A DNA stretch of 64,000 nt from Tridacna crocea (Eukaryota > Mollusca > Bivalvia > Cardiida > Cardiidae). The notes beneath the pieces were generated by a model, which was not told the origin of the DNA, searched no databases, and worked only from the letters and a program-made list of their open reading frames with translations. Shown one piece after another: positions 29,201-54,454 of the stretch. Numbering within the stretch: position 1 is the first letter of the stretch; every line of letters begins with the position of its first letter. Where the stretch lies: positions 40,768,728 through 40,832,727 of the forward strand of contig OX031069.1 in NCBI GenBank assembly GCA_943736015.1, read 5' to 3'. Position numbers and translations under genes: made by a program.

Positions 29201-32200
29201 TTTCCAGTCTTTATTTTTTTTATTCCTGGAGAGTTGTAATGTGCAAAAAGACATTGTAAACGTTAGTAAAGAACAATGATGGAAAAAAAGAAATTTGTGA
29301 GCACTAGAATTTGATAGCCACGTGTATAGAATTTGCAGAAGGTAATTTCAAGAGGATCGATATTATCTGGACAGTTTTGGATTCAATTAAAAAAAGTTAT
29401 AGGCTATTGAGTGGGAGATAAGTGCCTTCATTTACCAGTACTTCGCACAATATTGTTCCCATTGGCACTTGCTGCTTTCTTTGATCCGAGTCGACAAACG
29501 CTTGATAATCAACCAGTTCCTTGTTTGTGCACTTCATTCATTTTTACTATTAGTCACCGAGATAAAACTTACCTCTGGAAATTATTCGATATGATTAACC
29601 AATTCTAACCATTTTTTTGTTCGCTTGTATAGGTGTTTCTGTAAGATGTATCGTTGGTCTGTGAAATGCAAATGTCTAGAAATTTGTGTTTTCTTTTCAA
29701 TTTAAGGAAATGCCATGCGTTACCCCCTTCAGTTTGTTCGATTTAGCTTAATTCGAAGTGTTGTACATTTAGTCCGAGAAATATTTCTTCTTGTTTTAGT
29801 TTACACTTTAGCTGTAACTGTTTGGAATTGCATGTGAATAGGCCCTAAAACTGTATTTCTACCTTTCTTTGACTGCACAAGTTCTTAAGCCAGTACCCCC
29901 AGTCGGCGATTTCAAATTAGCAACTAAACACCCCCAGTCTATGAGTTCCTCGGATACATATATTTCGTTATGTTATTTTAGGAATCGAGATGGTAGCCTT
30001 GGTAAGATGTTCCTGCAACAGTTTGCGTTATGGTATTTTAGGAATCGAGATAGTAGCCTTGGTGAAATGTATCAGTAAGCTATAAACCTGTATCCTTCCA
30101 AAGATTCCACTCCCTACCTGTTAGCCTGCAACGCCAGTCGGAAAGATGTTCTCTTGGTTCCTTGTACTTCCTTTCAGACGGTGAAAAGCATTCTCAGTTT
30201 GATGTTCCTTCCAATCTTGTAACAATGTCCCTTCTATTATTTCAAATCAATGCCGTATGCCTGTGTCCGTGGTGGGTAATAGTTTCTGTCAGTTGGACAG
30301 ATATCCTCAGTATTTACAACTATGCCCTCACCCTTAATTTAGGTCCAGTCAGTTAGCTTGTTTATTCTGCTTCCTTCAAATTAGAACCTAACTTAATTGA
30401 ATGAACCTTCCAACGATAAAGCTATGCCCCTGTTGTTTCACCGGTAAGTCTTTGGCCTCAACGTCTTCTTTATGATCTTAACCCTTATTCTGAACGGTCT
30501 GAAATAATGTATTCGCCCTCATTTCTGTCATCTCACACACTCTATCTCCTCTCCTTTTCTTTATCTATTTCTATCTCTCTTTTTGCAATTTCTGTCTTTC
30601 TTCACCTCTCTCCATTTAATTTTGTGTATCTCTATTGTTTCTCTTTCTCTCTTTGTATCTCACCCTCAATCTACTGCCTTCCGAACCCTTTGTTCTTACT
30701 CTCTGTCCCTCATTTTATCTTTCTCTGAACACTGTTTTCCACGCTCAGTCTCTCGCCGTTTCTCTGTCTGTCTGTCTATCTCGCTTTCTGTCTTTCTCTC
30801 GTTCTGTGTATCACTCTCTATCCCTTCCTATTTCTCTTCTCTTCTTTTATTTCTCTCCTATTTCTACCTGTATCTCACTGCCTTCTTTCACACAGTCTCT
30901 CTATGTCTGTTGCTTTCTGTCTCTTCCGCTATTGCACCATCTTCTGTCTCATTTTCCTATCACTCCCTATTCTGTTACGTTCTCTCTGTATGTCTTTTTT
31001 TCTCTTTCCTTCCTGCAAACTTTACTCTTGTCTCTCTATCCTATCAATCTCTTTCGATTTTTTCCCTTTTTTTCTCTATCTATCGATCTATCTATAAAGA
31101 CTGTTTTCTCTGATCACGATGTCCACCCTTTTCTTCCAAAAAATGTACTTCCTACAATAAATTAGCTTCTGTTCTTCATATCTTCCTCAGTCTGCATGAT
31201 TAATTATTTCTCATTCTATTTGATGGTCCTTTAGTCCGTAATTTTGAGTGTAATATAACTATATTATCCTTCGAATATTGAGAATGAAATGTTATGGTGT
31301 TACTAGCACATTTGAGACATCCTGGCAAGATCTTACAAAATTATGTAATCACCCTGTACATTTCTACGTAAGACCGATTTGAATTCCGTATCAACCTCAG
31401 CTATTTACCTAATGAATGCCGAAAAAGCCAAGGTTCCCAATTTATGATCTAAAGCATCTATCTATTGAAAATAAGTCATAAAAATGAAAGTAAGATTCTC
31501 AATACTATAAGTATACAGTATTGATTGAAGAGTGTTAAGACGTCGTTTATAATATATTTTCAGTTCATATTGCGGCAGCCCGTGAACTTATCCTCTCCTT
31601 CAATTACTTTTACCAGTATTCCGCACAATATTCTTTCCAAGGCATTGACTATTTTCCAACATAAGAATCGTCAAAATAATGATAAAGGTTGAGAAATGAA
31701 TTAATCATATCGCAATGACTGCAATTCTCGGAAAAAATCGACCGAGCCGGGAATCAAACTAGCGCCTCCTTGTTCTCGAACCTTTTATGGTTTTCTTTAT
31801 CCAGTGCTCATCGTAATATTATATCCACTGGCTGCTGTCTCACATACTCAACGTCGTAAACATCAAAACATTATTCACCAGAGAGAGAGAGAGGGGAGAG
31901 CTTGTTAAAATGGAAAGTTGGAAAGTGCTTTTGATTTCGACACTTTTACCTTATAGTAGCAGGGTTGCCCTGTGGATAAAGAAATTGTGAAGTTCGGAAA
32001 GATTAATGACAGAAAAGACAAATTTATATTTCGTGCTATTTTAATAGGCACGCGTTCAAAAGTGTTCTGAAAGTAAATATAAGAATTAATTTTTTAGCCG
32101 TCGGCCTCTTTTCCACGTAATTATCGTTAAAACAATGAACAGCACTTAGATAGCAGACTTGCAATTACTTTCATCAAATATGGGAACAAATCTTGCGAAC

Positions 32201-32284
32201 TAGGGATTGGCGATCCCCTTGTCTCTAGAGCTGCGGATAAACGACTGAGGTATCGAACTAGTCTTTGACAATCGATTGATTGAG

Positions 32285-35200
32285 TGGTTGATTGACTTCA
32301 TGTGTTTAACACCGTTTCAACGATATTCTGGTTATATTGGTGCGTCCAGTACTTTTGCCTATGCGTTCCTGTAGTTTCAGTAACCAGTACTTCTCACGAT
32401 ATTCTTCCCAAGCCATTGACTGCTTTTCCACATAATTAAAGTCAAAACTGCTGCTCAGAAAAATTAAAGCTACCACAGTGAGTATTATCAACTCTCGGAA
32501 AGAAATGACCGAGCAGGGGATACAAACCAGCCAAGCCTTGCCTCAAGTTCCGGGCAATGCGGACCGAATACCTTTTTAAGAATCTTTGGAAGGTGAAGAC
32601 AATGTGTTGATTTGAAAATGCTGTGAAGTATTTCAGGTAAATAAAAGAAGGGGGACTGAATTGGTTGATTGATTGATTGCTTGATTGCATGTGGTTTATT
32701 ACCGTTTTCAACAATATTTCAATTATATCGCGGCGGCCAGTGCACGTACCCATACTTTACTGAAGGTTCAGTAACCAGTCCTTTGTACGATATTTTCCAG
32801 ATGGAAATTACTCCTTTTCAGCATTACTATTATCAAAAGTGCTTTTGAGAGGCTAGCGAAGAATTAATCCTGTCGCAAAAATTATTATCAAACCTCGGAA
32901 AGACATGGCCGAGTAGGGGAATCAAACCAGCTAACCCAAGTCTCATGTTAACCAGGGCGTTTTTAACGCTTCTTAATAATTGCTTTGATGATGATAATGA
33001 TGATTATAATAATGGTGATGGTAGTTTCGATGGTTGAGTTAGTAGTGATGGTGGTAAAGCCGATACCAGATTTAATAGTGGAGATAAATGTGTTTGTTTT
33101 CTTGGTTTTTAAGGTCGGGCGACTTGAACATTACTTGAATGTTACTAATTGTGCCCCTGGATTTTTACAGACATGAAAACCGAGAGCAGCAACAGAGAGG
33201 CAGTGAGTGTGAGAGGGAGTGAGTTTGATAAAGGTTTTGAATATAACATTTTTAACTTTATAGTGGAAAGGTTGTACTGTGGATGAAGAACTTGTTAAAT
33301 TTGTAAGGTTAATGACAGAAAAGCTAAATATCTATACTCTGCCAGATTTCAATAGGCATGTGTTGGCTTTGATATGTGTTACCTGCATTGAATGAAGGAT
33401 CCATTAAATCAGATATCCGTGTTGTTATAAAAGATGGTGATTTCAAGGGCTGGCTGTAAGGGGAGGTGGAGGGCAGGGAAATTCATCGGACTTTGGTAAA
33501 ATTTGAATTTCTTTTGTTGAATTTAGTCTATTGTGTTTTTAGTCATATTAGATTTCAGTCATATCAGATACATCGGGGCGTCATTTGCATCTAACCAAGT
33601 TGTGTCGGTATTTTATTTACCAGTACCTTTGCACATTATTCCAAACCAATGGATGGATGCTTTCCTACATAATTGCTTTTGGGAAAAAAACTTTCTGACG
33701 AGAAAGTAATAAATCATGTCGCAATGACTAATCAAACCTCGGATAAAAATTGCAACAGCTTGGGAATCGAACCTGTGAATCCCTATTTGCAACCGTCGTT
33801 TGTCATGAGGTGAGCAACCAAGCTAAGAATTATGCTGATGAAGTTTCTTGCATTTCATCAGATGTTGAAGCCATGTCAACGGAACTGAAAGTTATCATTT
33901 GAAACAAAAATATGGGGAGAGAATATTGAAATCTGTCGCTATGAACTTAATCCTAAAAAGAAAATTAGATTTGCCGAGATTCGAACTACAGAACCTTGGG
34001 TTTTAAGCAATCGGTTGACTGATACTGAGAAAGGGAGTAATTATTTGAATTTAAACGTTGCACTTCATTTCTTGAGGATTATTCTATGGGAGAAGCAATT
34101 GTAACATTTTGTAAAGAAACTTGACTGATTTGATGGATTGATAGCATGTGTTTACCACCGTTTTCAGCAATATTTCAATCATATCGTGGCGGCCAGTGCA
34201 CCTACCCATACTTTACTAAAGTTCCAGTAACCAGTCCTTTGCTCGATATTTTCCAGATGTTAATGACTCCTTTTCAACATAACTATTATCAAAAGCGCTT
34301 TTAAGAGGCTACCTAAGAATCAATCCTGTCGCAAAAAATTATCATGAAACTTTGAAAAAAAAATGGCCGAGTAGGGGAATCAAACCAGCTAACCCATGTC
34401 TCAAGTTCTATAGGCTGTCGACCGAATTGATATTAGAATATCTCTGTAGTCAAAGAAAAAGTTTTGATTTGAGAATGGTATGGAAGATTTTCAGATTAAT
34501 CAAAGAAAGGTAACTCATTTGAATGGAAAAAGATGTTTTCCTAAAATCTTCAAGAGTTTGCTATAAATTAACACAAAGCTATGGAGTTTTGACTGAAGGA
34601 TCCATTAAATGAGATATCCATGTTGTTATAAAAGATGGTGATTTAAAGGGCTTGCTGTAAGGGGAGGTAGAGGTCAGGAGGATAATTTTTACCAGTACTT
34701 TGCACAATGTTGTTCCCATTGACACTGGCAGCCTTTCTCACATAGCCTCGTCGAAAGAATTATGAGTGCTGAGATAAGACTAAATTCTGTCGCAATAATT
34801 GTCATCAGTTCTATAGATCATATTCTCAGTCTAAGCAGATGTATTCTTAGTCCCCAGATTTTACTTTCTTCTAAGGAAGGGTGTTTGAGAAAAGTTTTGA
34901 TTTTGACATTTTTACTTTATAGTGGAAAGATTGTATTGTGGATGAAGAAATTGATAAATGTGCAAGGCTAATGACAGAAAAGCTAATGCTAGATTGTAAT
35001 AGGCATGTGTTGGATTTAATAAGTGTTACCTGCATTGAATGAAAGGTCCATTCAATGAGATATCGATGTTGTTATAAAAGATGTTGATTTAAAGGGCTGG
35101 CTATAAGGGGAGATGGTGGGCAGGGGATAACTTTTTACCCGTACTTCGCTCAATATTGTTCCCATTGACACTGGCAGCATTTCTAACATAGCCTCGTCGA

Positions 35201-38200
35201 AAGAATTATGAGTGCTGAGATAAGATTAAATCCTGTTGCAGTAATCGTCATCAATTCTATCGAGCATATTCTCAGTCGAAGCAAATGTATCCTTAGTCCG
35301 CAGATTTTACTTTCACCTGAGGAAGGGAGTTTGAGAAAGGTTTGGATTTTGACATTTCTACTTTATAGTGTAAAGATTATATTGCGGATAAAGAAATTGA
35401 TAAATGTGTAAGGCTAATGACAGAAAAGCTAATGCTAGATTGTAATAGGCATGTGTTGGGTTTAATAAGTGTTACCTGCATTGAATAAAGGATCCATGAA
35501 ATGAGATATTCATGTTGTTATAAAAGATGGTGATTTAAAGGGCTGGCTGTAAGCGGAGGTGGAGGCTAGGGGGATATCTTTTTACCAGTACTTCGCACAA
35601 TATTGTTCCCATTGACACTGTCAGCCTTTCTTACATAGCCTCGTCGAAAGAATTATGAGTGCTGAGATAAGATTAAATCCTGTTGCAATATTCGCCATCA
35701 ATTCTATAGAGCATATTCTCAGTCTAACCAAATGTATCCTTAGTCCTCATATTTTACTTTCTTCTGAGGAAGGGTGTTTGAAAACGGTTTGGATTTTGAC
35801 GTTTTTTATTTTATAGTGGAAAGTTTCAATTGTGGATGAAGAAATTGATAAAATTAATGTTAAGGGTAATGACAGAAAAGTTAATGCTAGATTGTAATAG
35901 GGATGTCTTGGGTTTAATAAGTGTTACCTGCATTGAATGAAGGATCCATTAAATGAGATATCCATGTTGCTATAAAAGATGGTGATTTAAAGGGCTGGCT
36001 GTAAGGGGAGTTGGAGGCCAGGGGGATAACTTTTTTACCAGTACTTCGCACAGTATTGTTCCCATTGACACTGGCAGGCTTTCTCACATAGCCTCGTCGA
36101 AAGAATTATGAGTGCCGAGATAAGGTTAAATCCTGTCGCAATAATCGTCATGAATTCTAAAGAGCATATTCTCAGTCTAAGCAAATGTATCCTTAGTCTG
36201 CAGATTTCACTCTCACCTGAGGAAGGGAGTTTGAGAAAGGATTTGATTTTGACATTTTTACTATATAGTGGAAAGATTGTATTGCGGATGAAGAAATTGA
36301 TAAATGTGTAAGGGCAATGACAGAAGAGCTAATGCTAGATTGTAATAGGCAAGTGTTGGGTTTAATAAGTGTTACCTGCATTGGATGAAGGATCCATTAA
36401 ATGAGATATCCATGTTGCTATAAAAGATTGTGATTTAAAGGGCTGGCTGTAAGCGGAGGTGGATTTCAGGGGGATAACTTTTTACCAGTACTTCGCACAA
36501 TATTGTTCCCATTGACACTGGCAGCCTTTCTTATGTAGCCTTGTCGAAAGAAATATGAGTGCCGAGATAAGATTGAATCCTGTCGCAATAAACGCCATCA
36601 ATTCTATAGCGTATATGTATCCTTATTCCGCATATGTTACTTTCATCTGGGGAGATACATTTCCAGGCTGTATTTATTTATTCATGGAGGGTTGTTATGT
36701 GCAAAAAGACATTGTAAGTGTTAGTAAAGAACAATGATGGAAAAAAACGAAATTTGTGAGCACTAGATTTTGATAGCCACGTGTTTAGAATTTGCAGAAG
36801 TTAATTTCAAGAGGATCGATATTTCCTGGACAGTTTTGGATTTAATTCAAAAAAGTTATAAGCTATTTAGAAGGAGATCAGTGCCTTCTTTTACCAGTAC
36901 CTCACACAATATTGTTCCCATTGGCACTTGCTGCTTTCTTTGATCCGAGTCGACAAACGCTTGATAATCAACCAGTTCCTTGTTTCTGTACTTCATTTAT
37001 TTTTACTATTAGTCACTGAGGTAAAACTTACCTCTGGAAATTATTCGATATGATTTCTAACCCACAGCGCCTAAAACCAACCAGGAGACCGTTGCATGCA
37101 TATTGGGCTCTGAGATTGTATCCTCAGTTTGTAGAATGTTTCCCCAATCTATTTCATATCCTCGTAGACTTTGAAATTGTTCTATACTCAGTTGAATGTA
37201 CATCCAGGCCCTAAACCACTGCCTCACTCTCATGGTATTGTTTGCAGAGTTTGCCCATACACATTTTTCCTGACATGTACTTAAAATCTGTAGGAGTAAT
37301 TTCAGAGAGAATCCCAAATTTAACTTGCCTTCCAGTCTTAAAACATTGGTCAGTGCATCGAACCCAAGTTAGCAACTGAACACCCCCAGTCTATGAGTTC
37401 TTTGGATAGATTTATTGCGTTATGTTATTTTAGGAATCGAGATGGTAGCCTTGGTGAGATCAGTAAGCTATAAACCTCTGTCCTTCCAGAGTTTTTACTC
37501 CCTACCTGTTAGCCTGCAACGCCAGTCGGAAAGATGTTCTCTTGGTTCCTTGTACTTCCTCTCAGACGGTGAAAGACATTCTCAGTTTGATGTTCCTTCC
37601 AATCTTGTAACAATGTCCCATCTATTATTTCAAACCAATGCCGTATGCCTGTATCCGTGGTGGGTTATATCTTCAATCAGTTGGACAGATATATCCTCAG
37701 TATATACAACTATGCCCTCACCCTTAATGTAGCCGCAGTCAGTTAGCTTGTTTATTCTGCTTCCTTCAAATTAGAACCTAATTTAATTGAATGTACCTTC
37801 CAACGATACAGCTATGCCCCTGTTGTTTCACCGATAAGTCTTTGGCCTCAACGTCTTCTTTATGATCTTAACACTTAGTCTGAATGGTCTAAAATGGTGT
37901 ATTCGCCCTCATTTCTGTCACCTCACACACTCTATCTCTTCTCCTTTTCTTTATCTATTTTTCTTTCTCATTTTGCAATTTCTGTCTTTCTTCACCTCTC
38001 TCCATTTAATTTTGTGTATCTCTATTGTTTCTCTTTGTCTCTGTCTCTCACCCTCTATCTACTGCCTTACGAACTCAACCTCAGCTATTTACCTGAATGA
38101 ATGCCGAAAAAGCCAAGGTTCCCATTTTATGATCTAAAGCATCTATCTATTGAAAATAAGTCATAAAATGAACGTAAGATTCTCAATGCTATAAGTATGC

Positions 38201-41286: not shown

Positions 41287-41292
41287 TTTAAT
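41287..41292 (-). promoter_or_regulatory. Possible poly(A) signal ATTAAA
   Basis: ATTAAA on the minus strand, about 175 bases past the stop codon of the MRH gene. No canonical AATAAA is visible nearer. This is position and motif only. Confidence 0.3.
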
Positions 41293-41467: not shown

Positions 41468-41561
41468 TCACAAGTTGTCATACTCCTTTTGTTTGCATAT
41501 TTTTCCTTTCATTTTAAGCACAACAAGAGTAAGAGCCACAGCCAGTCCAACAATAATCATT
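41468..41561 (-). CDS. MRH gene exon 6: transmembrane helix, tail and stop
   Basis: Acceptor ctttctttgttttcag|A, completing Val with the previous exon. Then MIIVGLAVALTLVVL, a basic KMKGKICKQK stretch, EYDNL and TGA at 41470-41468. Confidence 0.92.
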
Positions 41562-44500
41562 CTGAAAACAAAGAAAGAAAATTGGACAATACTATAGAAT
41601 TTTACATAAGAAACGTACTCTTGAAAAAGTAAGCTTAATGCATTCCCCACCCCGATTACATTATAACAAGACAGTCCTACATAATTGAGGATCAATAGAA
41701 TTAAATTGAATCATACGATAGCTTAACAATCTAGCTTGCAGAAGATTGGCCAATAGTAAAAAAATTCTACCCAGATAAGCCTGGGCTGCGTAGGCTGACC
41801 CGGGAAGAAACTTTTTGCAGATGCATGGTACACGCCCTTATAGCACTGCTCACGTCTGTAGGTCAGTAAAATTACAAAATGTAGTTGAATTTCTCACATT
41901 CGCATTGTGTCTCAAAGAGAAACTTTTGGTTTTTATAATAACCTTCTGCGACATCTGACTTCCACGTCAACTTATCTCGATATACTAACGGCTATCTTGT
42001 AGTTGTTCTACAACACATGTTAACCAAGACTTGTCGAAAATTTTATAGAAACAAAAATGCCACATATAATGCTGATACATAGCTATAAAAATTTTCTAGA
42101 ATGGTTTGGACATGTAAACTTTGATCCAACTGTCGTATAAAAGTGTTTCGCATGTCCAGCTGAATATTGCTATGGCTTTGAAATGAGCCTGATTCTCACA
42201 AGCGATCTAAAATCAAATGGGTTATGTAGATCTAGGTATGAGAATTTTTTTTCCAGAAAAATGCCTTGGGTGTAAAATGTATGACAACATAGACAACATA
42301 CATTTATGATTTCAAATTCACAACAAAACTGCGCAGAGACGGGGACAGGAACAGGGTGGCTCTTCAGAAACACAGTTGTATTTTTCTAGACTTAACCGTT
42401 TACTCCATAGATACTCTTTTCAACACATTGCTTGTAGGAGCCTTTGGAAAACATTGTGGCAAAAGGTGAAATTGCTCGTCGCGAGCAATTTCACCTTTTG
42501 TAACAATGTTTTCTATGCTATCAAAAGGTGTTATTTACACATAAGAAACGGCTTCATCCTTGCAGTCATTTAAGGCCAATTAGAGATGCCATAGAAATGC
42601 CTTATGGGGTAAAGGGTTTATATTTTTATGTCCGAATTCAAAATGTATTGCGAAAGTAACCTTTCACTCAGGAAGGCAAACAGACCGACATTTGCTTATT
42701 TAACACTTTACCAAACGAGAAATTCTAGACCCTACCAAATTGAAAGCATCTGTAGATGACAAATCTTAAAGAAATACAAATGTTATTGAAGTTTGAAAAG
42801 GTAGAAAACAAGGTCAGAAAAGGAGAAAAAGTTCGTTACTTGCGTTTTCTCCCTTTTGCACAATGTTTTCAAAAGGGTCCTTAAACTCGGGAATATGTGG
42901 TAAAGTGTTTAACAACCTACAATACACTAAAAAGTTTCCACTCAGATACTTACACAGCGCATATCAGCAAAGCTTTAAGCGTTGTTTTTGACTTGTCAGG
43001 TTTAGGTGTTGGGTTAGGATGTACTGTAGTTGCTGTCGAAGACCTAGAAATAGACGTTTTCCCTGGCGACGTCGGAGACGAAACCGTCGGTGTTTCTGAT
43101 GAGGATGGCTCCATGGTTTCTGATGACGGATGTAGGGACGTCGACATACTTGGGTTGGAGGGCTCTGAACTTGTTGGTGTTATATCAGTTGTTTTTGTTG
43201 GCTTTGATGTCTCTACACTGGTGGTTGGACCTTCGGTTGTGATCTGGCTCCTAGGACAAGCCACAGGGCTTCGTAACACAAAATACTGGAATAAAAGTCA
43301 TGAAATATCACAATTGTTCATTTTTTTCAAGGTCTGCGGCCCCTCTAACTCGCGTATTTTCAGACAGAAGCTGCCGAGATTGGCTGAATAGGCTTTAAGA
43401 AAACGTCGATGGGGTCTTAAACCGTTTACTGTCTTAGGTCTACGTAAAGGAAGTACGCTTTGCTTTGAGTTTAGATAAGTCAGTACAGATTGCGAAGTGA
43501 GAAGGAGAATCCGGGAATTAATTTATCACATAAGTATAAGTTATTGATCATATATTTCATTTGTATGAAATTAAATCGGAGGGAGGCGAAGCCGACCGAC
43601 GATTTAGTTTCATACAAATGAAATATATTAATCAATAACTAACTTACAGTTTGCCCTACTTTCTAATTGACTGACAGCTAAGGATGGTGGAAAGAACCAT
43701 ACAAGGACGACAGAAAGCTCGGTTCACCACGCCTTTTTTGATTGACGGTTGTACGAACGTGCGTTTCGAGTCGTACGGCGTTAACTATTATTTATGTTGT
43801 CCTTGAGCTAGTTTCAGGACAATTGTCTGCAGTCAGGCTCATTCGGCATATCGCGGGTGATGGTAGCCATCATATCCCTCGTCTGTATTTAGTGGATTGA
43901 TATGCAGAAGATCAGTACATTCATCGCCCGGAAATACGCCGGTTTACAGTTCTGAAAATTGCCAGGCTTCTCTTACAAAAGAAAACATGGGTTTCAATTT
44001 TCTATCGAAATCTTTCGAACTATGTTGTATAAGACAAACACTTCGTACATTAATTTTTTTATCAATTCCGATTGAAGTTTTAACCAATAGATAGGCAGAT
44101 GTTATTAACTTCATCGAGGTCGTTTATGTCGTTGCTAAACGAATCACATTGTCCTGCCATGTATAAGATCACGTGAATAGCAGTTCAAATGTAAACGACC
44201 GTATACGGACGAGGTTAGATGTAGGTACGGAATCTGCCGAATTTCATGCTCTTTGAAGTGATAGATTCAGCAATGGATGCATGCTTTGACCCCGATGACG
44301 ACGAGAAATTTTATAAAGAATTTATTTTCCCCGACACAGACGACGTCACGCTAACACAACTGTGTACATGTCCCTCTAATGTGGCTCACTGTCCATGATC
44401 TGATTTCATTTTTAACCCATACCAGATAAGCCCTCTTTTTCACTGCCCTGAGGCAGAAGGCGCGTGAAAACATTGCGGGTAGAGGAGAAAGTGCTTGTAA

Positions 44501-47500
44501 GGAGCATTTTCTCCTTTCCTGGTATGTTTCTTTTTTTTCTTTCTACAGACAAATCCCATAATTTGAGCAAATACCAAGTTGTTGTCTGCAAACGGTTTCA
44601 CATTGGACCCAAGCCAAATTTCCCAGCCTGGAAAAGACTTCCTTACCAGGGTCGTTAAAACCAGAGGTTATTTGGTAAAGGGTTAAATGCCACGTGGTCA
44701 TGTACGAGTTGTTTAGTCCCGATATTCACGTGGAAATTACGTCACTTTTTTGGTGATGATGCAATTAATTGGAATAGTCCCCGCCCCTTTTACTACAGTG
44801 TATGCATTAGATTGGTATTTACTATACAAAGACCAGCTAAAAAACTGTGGGCGGAGCATCTCGTTAACCGGGATACAACTGTATATAGGTCAACCATTTA
44901 ATAACATATTGCAACATATTGAGTCTGTATGGAATTAAATCGAGCAGTTTTGAACGAAATCCGGCGTTTTCATTGGTTTAGAAAGTAGGGCAAACTGTAA
45001 CCTCCCTTGTTTTCAGTGTAATATACCCATTACAAATTTTCTTATCTTATACATATTTCTATGACGTCATTTTGACGTCATTTTGTGCGCATTTCATACA
45101 AGTGAATGGGTCTCATGGAAAATATCGCGGGTACATTAAATTTTATGAATGTTTTTTGTATCATTTGATCTATATTTCGTGAAATATAGTTATCTGATAA
45201 AAAGAATCTGACATTCGTGGGCTTTTGAGATAGAATTTTAATAAACTCGTCAAGGAAAATGTTATTAAGCTCGCCAAAGGCTCGCTTAATAACATTTCCC
45301 TAAACTCGTTTAATAAAATTTTATCTCAAAAGCCAGCTCATGTCAGATCCATATATATCTCGAGCATATTTAACTTCCATCGTTTCGGGAGAAGAAAAAT
45401 AAATTAATAGATCATTTCTGGCAATTAGTACTAAAGGAGTTCCGTTACTGGAAGTAATCTGATGCCAGGTATAGCTAACTTATACAATGGGCTAGTTATC
45501 AAGGGCTGGTAAGATAGAATCTCCGCCAGGCTAAATCTTTCTCAGGGAGTAAAAATAGCCGTTACTGCAGAATTAATTTCTCTTCTCCTTTACCTCGCAA
45601 TCTCGACCTTTAACGTCAACGAGAAGAGAAAGTTTTTGAAATCATGATGAGAAAAGGAAAAAAATATTGGTGATCAGCATTTTTCCTTTTCTCAGATTGT
45701 ATTGTACCGTTCCCCCGAAAAAAAGAAACGAAAAAAAAATTTTTTTTTCATGAGTTACATTTATTATTGTCTCCTATAAATGCTTTGAGTTTGGGCTGGT
45801 CTTGAACTTTGACGTTCGATAGCCCTATAGAGATGGTTTAGTTTGCATGAATTGTTTAGTCTGATCTTGATTTAAATCATTCGCAAAAGTTGTTACTTTC
45901 GCATACTACGCTGACAGGATGAAATTTCTTCGAATGACTTACAAAACTGTTAGATCCAATAGGTTTCTCACCAGACGCTTCGAATGTTGTATTATCGACA
46001 TCTCCTGTTGTACATTCAAGAATCACAAAAGCCGTTCTGTTTAAAAGGAAAAGATAATTAGAGCATGCTCTACGACAAAGTGTTGAAGGAACATCGAGTG
46101 ATTTTTACTTTTCCTACAAAACAGAAAGATACGAATGTTAATTCTTTAAACATTTTTAGATATTGTTTAATTTTGAGGAAGTATTTTGTCCATCTGAAGA
46201 TCACACTTATCGAGTAGCGATTATCGAAACTTGTGATAGCTGCCAGGGATTTACTTTTCATCGCGAAATATATATATATTTTTTTTTGTCAACGGTAATG
46301 TGACATCTTCTTCCGGTTTAACCCATACTGAATTCAAAATTCATTAGCATTAAGTGAGTACACAATGAAAAAATACGCTCATTATTCAATTTGCCAATGC
46401 TGAATTTGAATTTCTGTAATATTGTTTTGATTAAAGATTTCAATAGAAATTCGGTTTGGCTCAGTGGTGAAGCGTGGGACTCGTGACTTGGAGGCCTTGG
46501 GCTTGAGCCTCTCTTGATCAACCAAGTTTTTCACATGAATGTCCTTGGAAAAGGCACTTCAGAGCTCAAGGCTAATACTGCTGAAACCAAGGAATTGCAT
46601 CATATGTGAGCTGTCGTCGTGATAAGACTGGAGTAATGCTGAAAGCAGCGTAAAATACAGTTGAAACAAACAAAAATATAAGACAGACTTTAAACATCTT
46701 ACGAACAAAGTCCATAACAAAGAAAAAGGTAAATGCATAGCTTAAGTACAAACCGCATCTGGTCGGATTCGAACCCACGAAGAACAAATACCCTCATTTT
46801 TCGAGGATTAAAAGACCAATACCATAACCACTGAGCCAAAGAGATACAGATCTCTATGACACAGTTGTCAGGTACTGTATTTACATCGGGACGAAGCTAT
46901 GCATAAAGGAGTGGTCTCCAATAACAAACATCTGCTGTCTCAGCAGACCAGACCGCTAGGCTTTGAGTTAAGAGTACGAATTTGATTCTGACTGGTCGGT
47001 CTGGAATGACCTCTTTCTAGTTGAACTTTAACGAGTGCCAAGGAACCGTAATTTAGAAGAAGTATGCATAAAGGGCATTATTGACTTACAGGGCAATACC
47101 TTTATATCTAAGTACTAATGAATGAATGAATGTTGTTTTATGGCGCATCGACAGCTTTGGTCATTTAGCGCGCATATCTATGTTAAAAGATAATAAACGA
47201 GGAGTTGTTTAAACTGAATAAAGTTTGAATGACGAGAAAAGAATTGAATTAAGAAAACTTAATGCATAAAGGGCATGATTGAGTAACAGGGCAATCCCTA
47301 TATACTCAAAAGTTTTAAATGATAAGAACTGAATTAAGAAGTATGCATAAAGGGCATTATCGAGTTACAGGGCAATCCCTATATACTCAAAAGTTTTAAA
47401 TGATAAGATTTAAGAATGTGATAAAAAGGTTTAAATTCAATGCTGGTTTGATAAAAAGAAGTTTTTAAATGAAAAGAAATATGTGTCATTTATAATGTGC

Positions 47501-50500
47501 ATATCTATGTACTGGTATAGACAAAAAAATCAAGTAGCGCATGGAAAGGTTGTCGCCAAGATGTAACTAAAACGCTGTTTAGAACTTACCAAACAAATGA
47601 GACGTGCCCCGGCAAATGGGCCTTAATAGATCCCTGTAATGCAGCACATCAAGTAAACCAACATATTGTTATCTATCAATAAAATTCATTTTGTCGAAAT
47701 ATCAACAGAGTTAAATAGAGCTAAACTGGTCCTTAGGCATATAATAAGATTGACTTTACAGCAAAAGTGTCTGCCCATGTCAGCCTGCTGTCAGCCTGCG
47801 CGAACTGTACGATACATTTTGCAAATGCAAAAAAACTCCTTTTCAGAAATCATGACTCAATTCAAGCAAAAATGAAACAAGCATACCTTACAGTTGAGCT
47901 GCCGCCTTCCTTCGAGGAGTAGATCAACTGAACAGAATTTTTCTCGGGACCTTCTGTAAAGAGTACTGTTTCTTGGATCCCAAGGGAGTATATTCTGTTG
48001 GAAGGCAAGTCGGGATGAATTTCACACATCTAAAAGAGACAGGCGTGTGTTTCATCAGTAATAAAAAGAAGCAAACACTGACTTTAAACTCTAAGGTTTT
48101 CAAAAAATCGCTGCATAAGAGAAATCAACAACAACGACGACGACAAAACTTTGATGGTTAATCCTCTGCCACATTATCAAAACTTTTGACAACCCGAAAA
48201 AGAAAATTTTGAAAAAAAATTTGTTAAAAGCAGAAAATACTTGTAACCAGCATTTTCCTCTGTTTCCTACATTGTTCCCTTAATCTAACCCCACCCCAAA
48301 AAGTAATTTCAATTTTTGAGTAACGTTGAACTTGTCGTCTGCAAATGTTTTCAGTTTGGGCAAGTCTAAAAAATCTATTGTTGTTTGGGAAAATGCTATA
48401 CCTGATTCATAAGCTTTCGCTAAAATGCATTCAATTTCAGTTTAAAAAGAATTACTTTTGAAATGTTCAACATCATAATCTTAGCCGCAAATGGTCGATA
48501 ATAACCATCCAGCCTTGTCGGTTTGACAACTGAAAACTAACAATAGAGCAAGATATTCTGAAGTGATAAAAAACAATTTGAGGAAAGGGTCCTTGTAACT
48601 GCAAAACGATCATTTGGGTAATGGTCGAATCGAGGTTTACGCTTTGCTTTATTTTCAAGCGACTTACGGCTACGTCTTCACAAGCGTTGCTAAAGTTAAA
48701 GCTGTAGCATGGATTCCATAGGAACGTGTTCTCGCTTTGTGCTGTTTGATTAAATCTGTAAATATAGATGAGCCATACTCTGTAAAAAAGTTTGTTAAAT
48801 GCAACTGCAAACAGTTTCGACTAGGTCAGCCTGCGCTGTTTGCGCAGGCTGACCTGAATCGAAACTTTTTGGATTTGAGAACAGTACTTCATGTTCACGG
48901 GCCATTTTACATGTACCTTATAAATTCAGTCGGAAATATCTTCGATTTCCGAATACCTTGAATATGTCCTCATTGCAGGTACCCTTAAGAAAAACATAAG
49001 GACCATGATGGTCCTATATCGCTCACCTGAGTATATTTGTAACTTATATGGTTTATTAAGGGTAGGCTATTAATTCTTTTCAAATAAGGCATACCCTGGG
49101 GTTTGTGACTAGAAGATGTTTACAGATTTTCTTCTTTGTCCTTGGCCAGTGGAGCTAAAAACTTGCTTATCATCAATTTTTCTCTTCACAGTGTCTTGTT
49201 CCCTTTTTGACTTGTAGTTTAACCCATTACCAGACGACAAAATTCTAGACTGGTCCAAATTGAAACAAATTGCAGACGACATTTTAAAGTGTATTCAGAA
49301 TGAAAAATAAGTGCCACATAGGGTAGAAAAGATTGTGAGAAAGGAGAAATTGCTTGTTACATTTCTCCTTTTCCCACAATGTTTTTTAGAGCTATATATC
49401 GTTAGTGCGTCAAAATGGGGCATTGTGTGGTAATGGGTTAAGTAACATTAAATTTGTCGTCTGCAATATCTTTCAATTTTGACCTGTCTAAAAATCTGTG
49501 GTTTGCCAATGGATTAATATGGTATTCTTTACGTTATTGTATTTTAATGAATGGTCATGATATTTGTGGTTTGTAGTGACACATGAAGTCGATTCCATCT
49601 CATTGTTACCCTGATAAGATTCTGTTGTACACAGCGAAATCCCCCACAGCTGGCCTTGTTCCATATAAACAAATTAGAAGCCAAAAAATCTACACATGGA
49701 ACACACTCATAAGACCCCATCTGTACATAGTGTTATTATTTTACTTTGTTTGTATGGGGTTTCAAGACCACTTTCAACAGTATTTCAGTTATATCCCTGC
49801 GGCTGGTGCACCTTATTATGGCTTCCTGTTGTTTGTCACACCAGTACAACTACAACATACTGTGACTTTGACCTAGAAGGTAGGTCACTAAATGTTGCAC
49901 TCTCGGCCTTATGGTTTGTCACAAGAAGATTTTTAAAGATTTATTTTTCCATTTTCAGCCATTTTGTTGCCATGGCAACCAGAGTTTTAGATGGAATTGA
50001 TTTTAATAGATTTCCTTCTATGGTTCTAAGTAAAATAGTGTGCACCAGGGCGCAAAGCCCAAATATAACCCCAAGGGGATAATTTTGATTATTTTCATAG
50101 AAGGTTACAAGACGATGCTACATGCAATATATGAATGCTCTAGCCCTTATGGTTTGTCACAAGAAGATTTTAAAAGTTTCCTTCTCTGTTTCTATGTAAA
50201 ATTGGGTGCGCCCGGGCAGGGCCCAAATATGACCGCAAAGGGATAATTTTAACAATTTTGGTAGACGATCATCAGATAATGCTACATACCAAATATGAAT
50301 GCTCTAGCCATTATGGTTTGTCAGAAAAAGATTTTTTAAAAGTTTCCTTCTTTCTTTCTATGTAAAATAGGGTGCGCCCGGGCAAAGTCCAAATATGACT
50401 GCAAAGGGATAATTCTAACAATTTTGGTAGAGGATCATCAGATAATGCTACATATGAATGCTCTAGCCATTATGGTTAGTCAGAAAAATATTTTATGAAA

Positions 50501-53500
50501 GTTTCCTTCTTTGTTTCCATGTAAAGTAGGGTGTGCCCGGGCAAAGCCCAAATATGACCCCAGGGGAATAATTTTAACAATTTTGGTAAGAGGTCACCCA
50601 ATGATGCTCCAAACAAATTATGAATTCTCTCCGCCTTATAATTTGTCACAAGATGATTTTTAAAGATATTAAAATAGGGTGCACCCGGGCAGAGCCCAAA
50701 TATGACCGCAGAAGGATAATTTTAACATTTTTGGTCGAGGATCATCAGATAATGCTACATACCAAATATGAATTTTCTAGCCATTATGGTTTGTCAGAAG
50801 AAGATTTTTTAAAGATTTCCTTCTTTGTTTCTATGTAAAATAGGGTTCGCCCGGGCAAAACCTAAATATTACCCCAGGAGAATAACTTTAACAATTTTGG
50901 TAAGGGGTCACCCAATGTTGCCTCAAACAAAATATGAATGCTCTTGGCCTTATGGTTTGTCACAAGAAGATTTTTAAAGATTTAAAATAAGGTGCGCCCG
51001 GACAGAGCCCAAATATGATCGCAGAGGGATAATTTTAACAATTTTGGTACAGGATCCCAAATATAACCCAAGGGGAATAATTTTAACAATTTTGGTAAGG
51101 GGTCACCCAATGTTGCCTCAAACAAAATATGAATGCTCTAGCCGTTATGGTTTGTCACAAGAAGATTTTTAAAGATTGTGAAATAGGATGCACACGGGCA
51201 GAGCCCAAATATGACCGCAGAGAGATAATTTAAACAATTTTGGTTGAGGATCATCAGATAATGCTACATACCAAATATGAGTGCTCTATCCATTATGACT
51301 TGTCAGAAAAAGAAGCTTTAAAGATTTCCTTTTTTGTTTCTATATAAAATAGGGTGCGCCCGGGCAAAGCCCAAATATAACCCCAGGGGAATAATTTTAA
51401 CAATTTTGGTAAGGGGTCACCCAATGATGCTTGATACAAAATATGAATGGTCTCGGCCTTATGGTTTGTCACAAGAAGATTTTTAAAGATTATTCCATTT
51501 TCAGCCATTTTGTTGCCATGGCAATAAGAGTTTTTGATAGAACTAAATCTTTTAACAATTTTGTAGAGCTTCACCCAAGGAACATTCCTGCCAAGTTTTA
51601 TCAAGATTGGCCATCTGGTTTTGGAGGAGAAAATTTTTAAAGAAATTGTTAACGGACAGATGGACGAGAGGACGGACAGACGGAAAGACAACGCTAAACT
51701 ATATCCCTCCGCCTTCGGCGCGGGATAATACTAATAATAATATGATGATGCTCCTGATGCTGCTGCTGCTGATGATGATGATATGCTGATGCTGCTGCCG
51801 CTGATGATGATGGTGTTGATGGTTATAATTATAATAATGATGATAATGCTAATGCTACTGCTGTTGATGATGATAATAATATGCTGCTGCTGTTGATGAT
51901 GATGATGATTGTTCCAAGCCAAACTATGACGTTGAAAATGTTCAACCCCAAAGTTCGGTCCGATGGTACATAACCTCGGGTATCCGACCGAACTATGGGG
52001 TTGGAAATTTTCAACCCCCATAGTTCGGTCAACCCCATAGTTCGGTCCAACACAGCATAGGTCTACTGTTAACCGATATTCAGATGTTTTTTTATAGTTT
52101 TTATCAAATAAAACTGTCGGTTAAATAGATCTAATAAAATCATGAAAACAGTAGATCCGCAAGAAGGATTTATTGGTCAGAAATATTTTATCTAGACCTG
52201 AACGTACATGCATTAGATCTAGATTAGACTAGTCTAACGTTATCATTTACCTTTTTTTTTTCTTTTTAGAATTCATCAAAAGACTAACACCTATCACATT
52301 TGAATTTGTTGAGAGCTGGGTATAAAATATTCAAGGTAAATAACAGTGGATTTGTTTAGGTTATAGGACGAAACTTATAGATCTTGATCTAATTCTAGTT
52401 GTCTTAGGCTGTTCATCAATTCTTGAATTAATGTAAGAAGTAAGAACTGGCTGCTGATTGGCTGAGGAAAATATCTGAGTGTATCCTAAGGCTATTCTCA
52501 GAAAAAAAACAAAAAACAACTAAAATATGAAACACGAGTAAATCAGTTTATCTTCATTATAGGTTCGAACTGCGTTTAACTCCATTTTAAAACTTTATTC
52601 AAACTATATCGCAAAGGCCAATGCTTGCCTGGGGTTTAATTTACCATGCTTCAAGAAAATATTGTGGAAAAAGGAGAAAATGCTGGTTACCTTCTTTATC
52701 CTCAATATTTTTCAAAACCTATTTCTTCATTTCCGTCAAACATGGTATTGTTTGATACAGGGTTTAGTTGACCAAATGATCTCTGTCTATAGCAGACACA
52801 CATTGTACAATGGCTGACAATATTCTATATGACAGGTCGGAGAGCGACGATGAGCAGTTGTACAGCTTACCGGATAACAGCAACGTGGACACAGAAAAAT
52901 CGGAAAAATTGAATGTGCAGTTGAAAGAAATGGGCCTTGAAGAGGGAGGAAAGGAACAAAGTGTGAGAGTTGTGTGCGAGAGAAGTATCCGTGTCGTCAG
53001 GAACCGAGGACCGAGAGGTTTGAGCGTGCGAGAGAGCTGTATGGGAGGGTGGCTGTATTTTTTTTTTGTTTTCTCTGTAAGATGTTTGTGTGTGCGGAAT
53101 GCTTGCCCAAACATGACTGGCATGAAGGAATGAAAGTGAAGAGAAAGGAGAGTGAAGGAAAAGGAGAACAGAGAGAAAGAGTGAGAAATAATAAGGGAAA
53201 GGGACTGGGTAAGAAAACTATGACAAAGCTATTGGAAACAGAGAGCGAGAGAAAGGAGAATGAGGAAAATGAGAGAGACAGAATGATAGAAAAGACAAGA
53301 GAGAGACAGAAAGCGAAGGGAGTATATTGAAAAGCTTTTTAAAAATGAGAATGAAGCCGAGAGAACAAAGAAATTTTTCACCAGCCACCGCGTTGTTTGT
53401 GGTCGATTTGAAGTAAAACAAGAATTGGATCAGAGAGATTGTGTTAAAATTGTGGTGTCCGTGGCCGTGAGGTAGAGCGTCGGCCTCATAACCTAAAGGT

Positions 53501-54454
53501 CCTTACACTCCTAAGCTATTTTCCAACGTTTCATATCAGAAAGCAAATGAAGAAAAGAAAGAAAAATTTGAATAATTAAAATTAGAACTTTCTGTCAAAG
53601 CAGAAAACATTGTTGACAATGACAAATCATTCTGAGCAATTTAGCCTTTTCCAAAAAAGAAATGTAAAAGTTTTTTGCTTTGCTATTTGGCTGTCAAAAT
53701 GTGTTTATGTGAAGTAAAAGATTAATCTTATGATTTAAAAACCTTCTATTGCTAAATTGATCATCATCTAATTGAACTTAATCATCTTTACTGCTTTAAA
53801 TATAATTATACCCATTAAGAACAGAGTTAAAAGGTATTACAATCCGAATGTTTTCTTAATCTTGGTCTTTCAGATACCTTTTAAAGTGTTTGTGATGATT
53901 CAAGGTTCTAACTGATGCTCATTGATGTGCATGTAATAAAATCTTGAATATGCACAATTTTTTAAAGAATTGATCAGGGATGTACTGCATTAACATTCAC
54001 CAGAACAGGTTACAGGTGCAAGGTTGACGTGGCTGGTGCAATATCAAACACTCAAGCGATTTAGTCACTTACACATACAATTTATTGGAAGACTACATCG
54101 GAGGAGACGTTCAGTTGTTTGCTTATTTAAAGAGGGTGATGTTGTAATAGTCTACAACACCCATTTAATATTTCTAACATCTTATCTTGCATACCAAACA
54201 ATTAATTTGATCACTTGAATGAGTAGAAAGACAATACGTGAAGATTTCGAAATACCATTAGGTAAGAACTGGTACCTCGGTTTTCCATCATCCCTTCCAA
54301 GCGGTGATAGATCTATTTCCCGGCCGTCGTCGAAAGCGCATTTGCACGGAGTTATACGGTTACAAGATCTCTGTCCCAGTACATGCTCTACATGGTAAAC
54401 TAGGATATAAGTCGCTAAACATGTCATGAAAATACCGTGGTTCAAAACAGCCAT
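41468..54454 (-). CDS. MRH-domain type I membrane protein, six coding exons
   Basis: Joined in order, six minus-strand exons give 930 nt, or 309 residues plus stop. Residues 1-28 form a signal peptide. Residues 31-178 form a mannose-6-phosphate-receptor-homology lectin domain with eight cysteines (31, 37, 39, 76, 85, 91, 145, 178) and the landmarks DDGREIDLSPLG, FLWNPC, IYSLGIQ and YFVLRSPVAC. Candidate sugar contacts in the usual Q-R-E-Y pattern are Gln108, Arg137, Glu156 or Glu160, and Tyr169. Residues 180-270 are a Ser/Thr/Pro-rich, mucin-like stalk. About 273-294 is a transmembrane helix. The tail is rich in Lys and ends YDNL, a YxxPhi sorting motif. Sequons lie at Asn62, Asn80 and Asn152. 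All junctions are GT-AG and keep phase. By family, this suggests a glycan-binding receptor cycling between Golgi, endosome and surface; the ligand is unknown. Not a clear orthologue of the classical M6P receptors or ATG27. Confidence 0.9.
42392..42620 (+). mobile_element. TTAA-flanked hairpin MITE, copy 2 (intron 5)
   Basis: Left end TTAAccgtttac, right end ggtaaagggttta. The hairpin core at about 42457-42525 differs from the other copies: aaaggtgaaattgctcg with its complement around a cgcg centre, and the usual ggagaaaatgctgg is replaced. The right TTAA is mutated. Confidence 0.7.
42701..42911 (+). mobile_element. TTAA-flanked hairpin MITE, copy 3 (intron 5)
   Basis: TTTAACACTTTACC on the left matches ggtaaagtgttta on the right. 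It has gaaagcatctgtagatgac internally and a degraded hairpin core near 42815-42865. It ends about 40 bases from the exon 5 donor of the MRH gene. Confidence 0.75.
42954..43285 (-). CDS. MRH gene exon 5: last MRH cysteine and mucin-like stalk
   Basis: Acceptor cttttattccag|TAT in phase 0, donor GCGCTGT|GTAAGT in phase 2. Starts YFVLRSPVAC, then about 90 residues dominated by Ser, Thr and Pro, and ends in the first part of the transmembrane helix (KALLICA). Many potential O-glycosylation sites. Confidence 0.92.
43286..43538. other. Intron 4 segment, nothing recognised
   Basis: Lies directly upstream (minus strand) of exon 5. A short open stretch near 43320-43390 on the minus strand has an acceptor-like cctattcag, but no donor in a usable phase. 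Confidence 0.35.
43539..43640. repeat. Long palindrome (hairpin element 2)
   Basis: Arms of 40 and 41 bp (43539-43578 and 43600-43640; agttattgat and its complement at the ends, tttcatttgtatgaaa inside) around the loop gagggaggcgaagccgaccg. It abuts the TA-flanked element that starts at 43647. Confidence 0.75.
44246..44398 (+). CDS. Small acidic Cys-containing ORF of 50 codons (uncertain)
   Basis: ATG at 44246, TGA at 44396-44398. The product is acidic (CFDPDDDEKFY, FPDTDDV) and ends CTCPSNVAHCP. It lies inside the TA-flanked element, so it may be a remnant of a captured first exon or of the parent transposon. I do not recognise it, and length alone does not exclude chance. Confidence 0.2.
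   Translation: MLFEVIDSAMDACFDPDDDEKFYKEFIFPDTDDVTLTQLCTCPSNVAHCP
44413..44685 (+). mobile_element. TTAA-flanked hairpin MITE, copy 4 (inside the TA element)
   Basis: TTAACCCATACC on the left, ggtaaagggTTAA on the right, central hairpin gaggagaaagtgcttg against agcattttctcctttcc near 44482-44520. The left half is diverged. A run of T lies next to the core. Confidence 0.75.
45000..45205. other. Intron 4 segment with repeated TGACGTCA
   Basis: Nothing coding. Two tgacgtcatttt copies lie at 45062-45085; these match the CRE octamer, but an intronic position and direct duplication make a regulatory role speculative. Confidence 0.3.
45206..45348. repeat. Long palindrome (hairpin element 3)
   Basis: Outer arms gggcttttgagatagaattt and its complement, inner arms aaatgttattaagctcg and its complement around ccaaagg. 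The whole 143 bp can fold into a nearly continuous hairpin. It lies in intron 4 of the MRH gene. Confidence 0.75.
45610..45840 (-). mobile_element. TTAA MITE relative, reverse orientation, degraded (intron 4)
   Basis: Hairpin core gagaaaaggaaaaa against ttttccttttctc at 45650-45700. On the right are remnants of the arm in reverse (aaatgctttgagtttgggctgg). An A/T homopolymer patch interrupts it at 45720-45750. The ends are not clear. Confidence 0.5.
45943..46036 (-). CDS. MRH gene exon 4: end of the lectin domain
   Basis: Acceptor ttttaaacag|A, donor AGTTTT|GTAAGT in phase 0. Encodes R|TAFVILECTTGD and a linker with one sequon (NTT). Confidence 0.9.
46449..46670 (+). mobile_element. tRNA-derived SINE, plus strand (intron 3)
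   Basis: A box tggctcagtggtgaagc at 46456, degenerate B box gggcttgagcc near 46499, then a body with cttggaaaaggcacttcag and the 3' domain ctgtcgtcgtgataagact to gaaagcagcgtaaaat, followed by an A-rich tail. This 3' domain is shared by bivalve SINEs (recalled, not searched). Confidence 0.75.
46740..46855 (-). mobile_element. tRNA-like SINE head, minus strand (intron 3)
   Basis: On the minus strand: A box tggctcagtggttatgg, B box gggttcgaatccgac. The anticodon and acceptor stems do not pair, so it is not a functional tRNA gene. The two SINE heads face each other around 46670-46740. Confidence 0.6.
47058..47504 (-). mobile_element. 5'-truncated LINE 3' end (intron 3)
   Basis: From 47117 it matches the 3' untranslated region of the LINE at 59.8-64 kb: AATG tail repeats at 47117-47132, atggcgcatcgacagctttg, two copies of the ggcaatccctatatactc phrase, and homology ending near gtgtcatttataatgtgcat at about 47504. 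A second fragment of the same 3' end lies against its tail at 47058-47113. Same orientation as the large copy. Confidence 0.85.
47887..48029 (-). CDS. MRH gene exon 3: central MRH strands
   Basis: Acceptor tgtctcttttag|ATG, donor GTAAG|GTATGC in phase 2. Encodes MCEI, IYSLGIQ and SVQLIYSS, with the GGSST loop before the conserved Arg that is completed across the junction. A nearer GTAAGG would break the frame with exon 4. Confidence 0.9.
48159..48405 (-). mobile_element. TTAA MITE relative, reverse orientation (intron 2)
   Basis: TTAATCCTCTGCCACATTA on the left resembles the family terminus. Core agcagaaaatacttgtaacc against cagcattttcctctg at 48230-48270, and the reversed arm cgtctgcaaatgttttcag at 48342-48360. 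The right end is lost. It lies wholly inside the 638-bp intron 2 of the MRH gene. Confidence 0.6.
48668..48755 (-). CDS. MRH gene exon 2: NPC region
   Basis: Acceptor ctatatttacag|A, donor GACGTAGCC|GTAAGT. It encodes FLWNPCYSFNFSNACEDVA, the conserved NPC...C part of MRH domains. An alternative acceptor 14 bases downstream (48741) pairs with the longer exon 1. Confidence 0.9.
48815..48865. repeat. Palindrome of the gcaggctgacc family (intron 1)
   Basis: tttcga..aggtcagcctgcgc and its complement around tgttt, about 23 paired bases. The sequence after it (aaactttttgg, then gtacttcatgttca) resembles that after the copies at 41778 and 54620, so this is a dispersed repeat rather than a chance palindrome. 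Confidence 0.65.
49219..49441 (+). mobile_element. TTAA-flanked hairpin MITE, copy 5 (intron 1)
   Basis: TTAACCCATTACCAGAC on the left, gtgtggtaatgggTTAA on the right. Internally it has tctagactggtccaaattga and a core of gagaaaggagaaat against atttctccttttccc at 49338-49380. Directly to its right (49445-49530) lies part of an older reversed family member, so insertions are nested. Confidence 0.85.
50035..51400. repeat. Minisatellite of about ten 145-165 bp units
   Basis: The phrase ggtgcgcccgggcaaagccc or a variant recurs near 50041, 50205, 50371, 50530, 50678, 50844, 50988, 51187 and 51350, each followed by aaatatgacc, an aattttaacaattttggt segment and ccattatggtttgtcag. One unit near 51060 has lost its GC-rich head. 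Two alternating variants (catcagataatgctacatac and cacccaatgatgctc) suggest a former higher-order dimer. Confidence 0.9.
51722..51915. repeat. ATG/CTG/ATA trinucleotide-rich tract
   Basis: An impure run of gat, gct and aat triplets over about 190 bases, directly beyond the right end of the composite element. Frames across it are triplet-repeat artefacts. Confidence 0.85.
51916..52055. repeat. Inverted and direct copies of ccccatagttcggtc
   Basis: The phrase occurs in inverted form at 51980-51996 and in direct form near 51945 (variant), 52015 and 52033. The pair around ttggaaattttcaa makes a foldback of about 15 bp per arm. Confidence 0.7.
52056..52633. other. Intron 1 segment, nothing recognised
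   Basis: A+T-rich single-copy-looking sequence inside intron 1 of the MRH gene. I find no frame, RNA or repeat that I can name. Confidence 0.4.
52634..52765 (+). mobile_element. TTAA MITE relative, partial (intron 1)
   Basis: TTTAATTTACC on the left, core attgtggaaaaaggagaaaa then tgctggttacc near 52660-52690. Much of the left arm is missing and the right end (gatacagggtttag) has decayed. Confidence 0.5.
52810..53472 (+). pseudogene. Frameshifted ORF cluster with Cys/His metal-binding pattern
   Basis: Three consecutive open stretches in shifting frames look like one broken coding sequence. Frame 1 starts ATG at 52810 and gives an acidic N-terminus (SESDDEQLYSLPDN). Near 52950 frame 2 takes over, with a CESC motif and then CFLCKMFVCAECLPKHDWH, a C-x2-C-x4-C-x2-C-x3-H-x2-H pattern like B-box-type zinc sites. 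A Lys/Glu/Arg-rich stretch follows. Frame 1 is open again from about 53290 to 53472 (IEKLFKNENEAERTKKFFTS). I do not recognise the family. It lies antisense inside intron 1 of the MRH gene. It could be a retrocopy, a degraded transposon ORF or, less likely, a spliced gene. Confidence 0.4.
53446..53510 (+). mobile_element. SINE head fragment
   Basis: gtccgtggccgtgaggtagagcg followed by tcggcctcataacc resembles the A-box half of a tRNA-derived SINE. The B box and body are missing. Confidence 0.45.
53511..54255. other. Intron 1 segment next to exon 1, nothing recognised
   Basis: A+T-rich intronic sequence. No frame or repeat that I can support. Confidence 0.4.
54276..54454 (-). CDS. MRH gene exon 1: start, signal peptide, first MRH strand
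   Basis: ATG at 54454-54452 opens a hydrophobic signal peptide, then TPCKCAFDDGREIDLSPLG. I end it at CCGAG|GTACCA (phase 2), giving KPRF, the usual MRH wording, with exon 2. A second donor at 54256 (AATG|GTATTT, phase 1) also works with a different exon 2 acceptor and gives 311 residues. Confidence 0.85.

Follow-up and report, generated by a model that had tools for sequence, protein, structure and literature searches.

The question raised by the locus described here is whether six short segments of minus-strand coding sequence, lying in a 64,000-nucleotide stretch of the Tridacna crocea genome (contig OX031069.1, positions 40,768,728 to 40,832,727; hereafter the window), make up a gene and, if so, whether its product can be considered a lectin receptor. 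A preliminary description of the window had joined them into a 309-residue protein with a signal peptide, an MRH domain with eight cysteines, a mucin-like stalk, a transmembrane helix and a terminal YDNL. All of these landmarks are found, with the signal peptide remaining putative. The six exons read as a real, intact-looking animal gene, known here from genomic sequence alone, and its product is probably a type I glycoprotein that crosses the membrane once and carries a single MRH domain; it would be a divergent relative of ATG27 and of the cation-dependent mannose 6-phosphate receptor (CD-MPR), sorted within the endo-lysosomal system and recognizing a ligand other than mannose.

The exons extend from position 54454 to position 41468 of the window, with GT-AG at every border and intron phases 2-0-2-0-2, as the preliminary description had it; joined, they form an open reading frame (ORF) of 309 codons without stops or frameshifts, from which a type I membrane protein is predicted. 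A conserved arginine codon is split across the junction of exons 3 and 4. A 317-residue model, using the exon 2 acceptor at 48779, was dropped in favour of the acceptor at 48755, because the latter is picked by spliced alignment with paralog profiles lacking the target protein, because the resulting 88-nt exon 2 is shared by six of the nine family models, and because the score of the MRH domain with the CIMR model rises to 22.2 bits, from 18.1 and 16.7 in the longer model.

The notion that open frames were joined here by chance draws on the weak donor of exon 1, which agrees with the consensus at five of nine places; it is scarcely credible in view of the following test. A spliced-alignment script, which gave back the exact exon chain when the 317-residue protein was the query (positive control), was run with a profile of seven paralogs from the same genome, with the target protein and its nearest relative omitted. 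This profile recovers the chain of MRH exons in the window, including the 54370-54276 part of exon 1, with a score of 161.7, whereas all 20 controls stay at or below 44.6 (26.9-37.7 for eight control segments or strands, 32.1-44.6 for 12 single-base shuffles). A genome search with the single protein likewise finds a match to exon 1 elsewhere on the same chromosome, C14 (48% identical, E 5.8e-5), which includes the signal-peptide part. Chance joining is further contradicted by a second complete six-exon copy, the close paralog, located about 180 kb away at C14:40,632,488-40,625,315; it encodes 228 residues with the same phases, a 20-residue linker in place of the stalk, and a C-terminus ...LKIKGKICKKAEYDDL.

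The comparison of these two copies also bears on whether the target is a decaying gene that has ceased to produce protein. Two changed residues in its binding site and the absence of AATAAA within 1 kb downstream of the stop codon, where a single ATTAAA occurs at 41292, would fit decay. Against this stand the uninterrupted 309 codons, the preserved terminal YDNL (YDDL in the paralog), and the distribution of differences in 226 aligned codons, 88, 78 and 148 at codon positions 1, 2 and 3, respectively. Moreover, 66 of the 101 identical residues are encoded by a different codon in the paralog. The codon-position pattern thus points to two long-separated proteins held by selection, and decay is very improbable. 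Their MRH domains are 41% identical, and 62 of 154 alignment columns are invariant.

The N-terminus of the predicted protein is moderately hydrophobic, and the eight luminal cysteines are accompanied by one strong hydrophobic segment. Relative to the family, the stalk has been lengthened and the transmembrane/tail exon rewritten. The stalk comprises residues 180-270, i.e., 91 residues of which 64% are Ser, Thr or Pro, while the linker encoded by the homologous exon 5 in the seven relatives measured is 15-25 residues long; a long stalk of this composition is present in one of the eight models measured, that of the target gene. The transmembrane exon has 94 bases in the target and the close paralog, lacks a PN-x-x-FW block in both, and is 63% identical between them. 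By contrast, the canonical transmembrane exon of the family has 127 bases in five (A, B, D, E1, E2) of the six relatives having one, the exon end in gene C having been set manually, and PN-x-x-FW follows the membrane segment in all six. The 15-residue tail of the target, KMKGKICKQKEYDNL, contains no acidic di-leucine and ends in YDNL, a Y-x-x-hydrophobic C-terminus also found in the paralog (YDDL). A short terminal exon could be identified in four relatives, with the ends YSQI, YTKY, YVSM and YDVK; two of these four (B and E1) have the strict Y-x-x-hydrophobic end.

By profile comparison and through its paralogs the MRH assignment made in the preliminary description holds at the level of predicted sequence, and the protein appears as a divergent member of the ATG27/CD-MPR-like family. 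In hhalign comparisons the target with its close paralog matches the seven relatives at 99.9% probability (E 1.6e-33), the models of these relatives having been drawn with the target's help; the relatives match six CD-MPR and CI-MPR domains at 98.2% (E 5.2e-14), and the target with its close paralog matches the same domains at 91.5% (E 8.6e-7). In the 317-residue model the MRH profile score is 26.2, compared with at most 21.9 among 200 shuffles. Of the five paralogs scanned against Pfam, four pass the cut-offs of both ATG27 (27 bits) and Man-6-P_recep (25.4 bits): D, E1, C and B score 73.2, 66.4, 53.4 and 63.0 bits with the former and 46.7, 57.4, 49.4 and 61.0 bits with the latter. Earlier models of two further genes passed one cut-off each, A that of Man-6-P_recep (39.0; ATG27 20.0) and E2 that of ATG27 (35.1; Man-6-P_recep 22.1), and F stood outside the scan. 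Exon phases, taken as length remainders by three, agree in all nine family models as far as the models extend. The first paralog models had contained spurious mini-exons from forced gaps, some of which persisted after splice-site scoring; exons 2-4 were taken from a phase-free search with spurious mini-exons dropped by hand, and exon 5 donors were chosen among those of the expected phase.

Several results weigh against this assignment or against the reading built on it. The profile search that the preliminary description had proposed went the other way: in a Pfam scan the full-length protein has no match to CIMR, Man-6-P_recep or ATG27 (PF09451), and the isolated domain reaches CIMR (PF00878), over its N-terminal half, at 22.2 bits (E 1.6e-4), 0.3 under the cut-off of 22.5. 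Doubling the domain in tandem, so as to accommodate the permutation of the CIMR model, lost the match, and a doubled shuffle obtained 22.4 bits with an unrelated family; since doubled shuffles yield chance matches of like size, the approach was discarded. The target alone (317-residue model) matches the MPR domains with E 5.3e-4 and a probability of 30%. The close paralog lies under both Pfam cut-offs (ATG27 21.0, Man-6-P_recep 13.9), and a genome search with the MRH part alone at E<=0.001 returned its own exons and no paralog. The paralog models used for the profile test are biased towards the target protein, because it was part of the profile with which they were first drawn. A tree of MRH domains, in which no branch is strongly supported, was left unused. 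As to sorting, two of the four canonical tails (YTKY and YDVK) miss the strict Y-x-x-hydrophobic end.

Other candidate homologies were rejected. Full-length Pfam matches below the cut-off (DUF1180, MGC-24, Pox_A14, SOG2) cover the stalk and transmembrane segment only and were attributed to composition; among them FAM174 (DUF1180) obtained 20.8 bits against a cut-off of 27.7, over the stalk, transmembrane segment and tail. A search of the PDB with the whole protein gave one match (E 0.78), treated as due to chance.

Genome searches, in which all match counts are lower bounds, suggest that this MRH receptor family has multiplied along one chromosome, C14, which represents 48.4 Mb of 1,048.8 Mb, or 4.6% of the genome. 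The 317-residue protein at E<=10 gave at least 22 matches, six of them the target's own exons. At least 11 others concern the signal and MRH parts; C14 holds all 11 of those listed, including two in the close paralog; the one non-self match to the last exon is also in the close paralog, and four non-self matches confined to the stalk or transmembrane segment lie on C3, C5, C11 and C13. The Man-6-P_recep model found at least 16 matches, eight each on C17 and C14, and the ATG27 model at least 11, with eight on C14, one on C17 and two weak ones on C2 (E 3.6 and 5.1). Among at least 16 matches of CIMR none is on C14, and 12 of 16 are on C5, in a CI-MPR-like gene; the CIMR model therefore missed the C14 family in unspliced DNA. 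The family members are listed in Table 1; additional single-exon matches occur on C14 at 3.64-3.66, 19.54-19.55, 25.67 and 43.86 Mb.

Table 1. Exons of the target gene (window positions) and the other family models on chromosome C14
Feature	Position	Strand	Content
Exon 1	54276..54454	-	start codon, hydrophobic N-terminus (putative signal peptide), MRH cysteines 1-3, SCNRITPCKCAFDDGREIDLSPLGRDDGKP
Exon 2	48668..48755	-	88 nt; R, then FNQTAQSENTFLWNPCYSFNFSNACEDVA; alternative acceptor 48779 adds 8 residues
Exon 3	47887..48029	-	143 nt; MCEIHPDLPSNRIYSLGIQETVLFTEGPEKNSVQLIYSSKEGGSSTV; recovered by paralog-only profile
Exon 4	45943..46036	-	94 nt; R, then TAFVILECTTGDVDNTTFEASGEKPIGSNSF; recovered by paralog-only profile
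Exon 5	42954..43285	-	332 nt; last part of MRH domain (YFVLRSPVACP), 91-residue S/T/P-rich stalk, start of transmembrane helix
Exon 6	41468..41561	-	94 nt including stop; remainder of transmembrane helix, short tail KMKGKICKQKEYDNL
A	C14 0.09-0.10 Mb		partial model
E1	C14 12.95 Mb		reaches stop codon
E2	C14 12.96 Mb		reaches stop codon
B	C14 17.36-17.38 Mb		reaches stop codon
F	C14 25.68-25.69 Mb		partial model
D	C14 33.44-33.45 Mb		reaches stop codon
C	C14 39.64-39.65 Mb		partial model
Close paralog	C14 40.63 Mb		reaches stop codon

Outside C14, two adjoining CD-MPR-like genes are located at C17:21.18-21.23 Mb, one with a tail ending in DENLLPM and the other with a differently ending last matched exon. 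A weak CIMR match (E 4.7) on the minus strand at C7:15136602-15136739 reads as an MRH-like exon, which we take to resemble the ELAPOR type, and a single MRH-like exon at C8:46695475-46695600 runs straight into a stop codon after ...TSLAC.

The term lectin receptor, used in the preliminary description, is borne out as far as MRH homology goes and weakened by the state of the sugar-binding site. Gln, Arg, Glu and Tyr are the residues we take to be the mannose-contact set of MRH lectins; the aligned positions here are Glu92, Arg137, Glu160 and Phe168, the placement of the Glu being the least certain. Arg and Glu are thus kept, and Gln is replaced by Glu and Tyr by Phe. Judged by eye, the full set is present in two of the nine family models, D and E1, and absent from the other seven. 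Despite the eight luminal cysteines, one disulfide pair, presumably C132/C167 of CD-MPR, is missing from the target and from the other eight models. The alignment shows CI-MPR repeat 5 to lack the same pair. This domain 5 is a working carbohydrate-binding domain (PMC7481795), so the missing disulfide is no argument against sugar binding. With both the Gln and the Tyr replaced, lectin function appears doubtful; the sugar site looks worn, and the protein may therefore have ceased to be a genuine lectin.

These data have to be set against the idea that the protein is a working lectin cargo receptor, carrying hydrolases to lysosomes by way of mannose or phosphomannose. The MRH fold expected from homology, the retained Arg and Glu, the full contact set in the relatives D and E1, and the precedent of CI-MPR domain 5 would all suit such a role, but half of the contact set is altered, the tail lacks an acidic di-leucine of the kind seen in DENLLPM of the C17 gene, and sugar binding is confined to some MRH domains (PMC4444583). 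Such a cargo receptor is unlikely, though still to be reckoned with. The altered site, together with the 91-residue S/T/P-rich stalk and the 15-residue tail ending in YDNL, could instead be taken to indicate a LAMP-like structural glycoprotein, as we presume from general likeness, in which the stalk and the short Y-motif tail are the functional parts and the MRH domain merely a folded cap. This, too, is unlikely: the MRH domain has been kept between the target and a close paralog whose linker has 20 residues, so that conservation does not lie in the stalk.

For the preferred reading, that of a divergent ATG27/CD-MPR-like glycoprotein of the endo-lysosomal system, the following course of events is proposed as the most likely. 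After leaving the Golgi, the protein would be recognized by an adaptor through its C-terminal YDNL and sorted to, and cycled between, endosomes and lysosome-related membranes; the model for this step is yeast Atg27 with its YSAV and AP-3. The stalk, presumably O-glycosylated, would project the MRH domain outward, and the domain would bind a protein or a non-standard glycan, a ligand proposed because half of the mannose-binding set is lost.

More tentatively, C14 might carry a diversifying repertoire of Atg27-type MRH proteins, some keeping the mannose site and others turning to new ligands, with one branch having exchanged its transmembrane/tail exon and acquired a mucin stalk; a lectin family would then be on its way to becoming a set of receptors that deal with food, microbes or symbionts, whether as recognition molecules or within the endo-lysosomal system, a speculative picture at present. 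The locus illustrates, in one concrete instance, how an M6P-receptor-type family multiplies on one chromosome as the sugar site erodes and the stalk and sorting tail change, and D and E1, in which the site seems to be kept, provide within the same genome a comparison for when an MRH domain ceases to be a lectin.

The gene had been described as hidden among transposons; however, no transposon protein was found in the four of 36 window ORFs scanned against Pfam, and intron 1 contains degenerate tandem repeats, with an array of about 166-bp units at 50001-51730 of the window and further diverged copies. At positions 1-26173 of the window a 7,548-bp unit is repeated head to tail about 3.5 times, with 98.5% identity across 18.6 kb, and diverged pieces of it extend to approximately 39.5 kb. 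The repeat has no Rfam match at the gathering threshold and no tRNA, and the 121-residue ORF recurring in it has no Pfam match. Within the large tandem block, positions 25320-36616 contain three arrays of a 446-448 bp unit with 85-89% matches.

Published systems resemble the target in part. A literature search found nothing joining the MRH domain and the mannose 6-phosphate receptor together with invertebrates or with ATG27, and nothing on-topic for Atg27 in molluscs, as judged from the list of results; neither a mucin-stalked subtype nor confinement to one chromosome was found described in the results it listed, most subscription papers being outside it. The ATG27 family, including yeast Atg27, resembles the target in combining a single luminal domain of MRH type with a single transmembrane helix and a very short tail that ends in a tyrosine motif; in yeast the C-terminal YSAV and AP-3 are needed for vacuole location (PMC8008256). 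The target differs from it in having no ATG27 match, a 91-residue stalk and no PN-x-x-FW block. The unlikeness to ATG27 noted earlier thus concerns the stalk and the rewritten tail exon and does not extend to the family, four members of which score 53-73 bits with ATG27, while the tails of B and E1 are Y-x-x-hydrophobic like the yeast YSAV. CD-MPR (PF02157) is likewise a type I membrane protein with a single MRH domain; the target lacks the cysteines of one disulfide, two contact residues (Gln and Tyr) and an acidic di-leucine, and the two CD-MPR-like genes of this genome sit apart, on C17. CI-MPR is approached by the CIMR match below the cut-off and by the loss of the same cysteine pair in its repeat 5, but it has 15 domains where the target has one, and the CI-MPR-like gene of this genome is on C5. 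The closest parallels to the multiplication itself are the lineage-specific MPR expansions of the clam Conchocele bisecta, with 15 copies compared with two or five in endosymbiotic bivalves (PMC9993606), and of the tubeworm Paraescarpia echinospica (PMC8476170). In the portions of these papers available, copy number and expression are given, with no mention of a mucin-stalked subtype or of confinement to one chromosome. MPR expansion in bivalves is therefore already published, and the characterization of the family as poorly described is fair for the mucin-stalked subtype.

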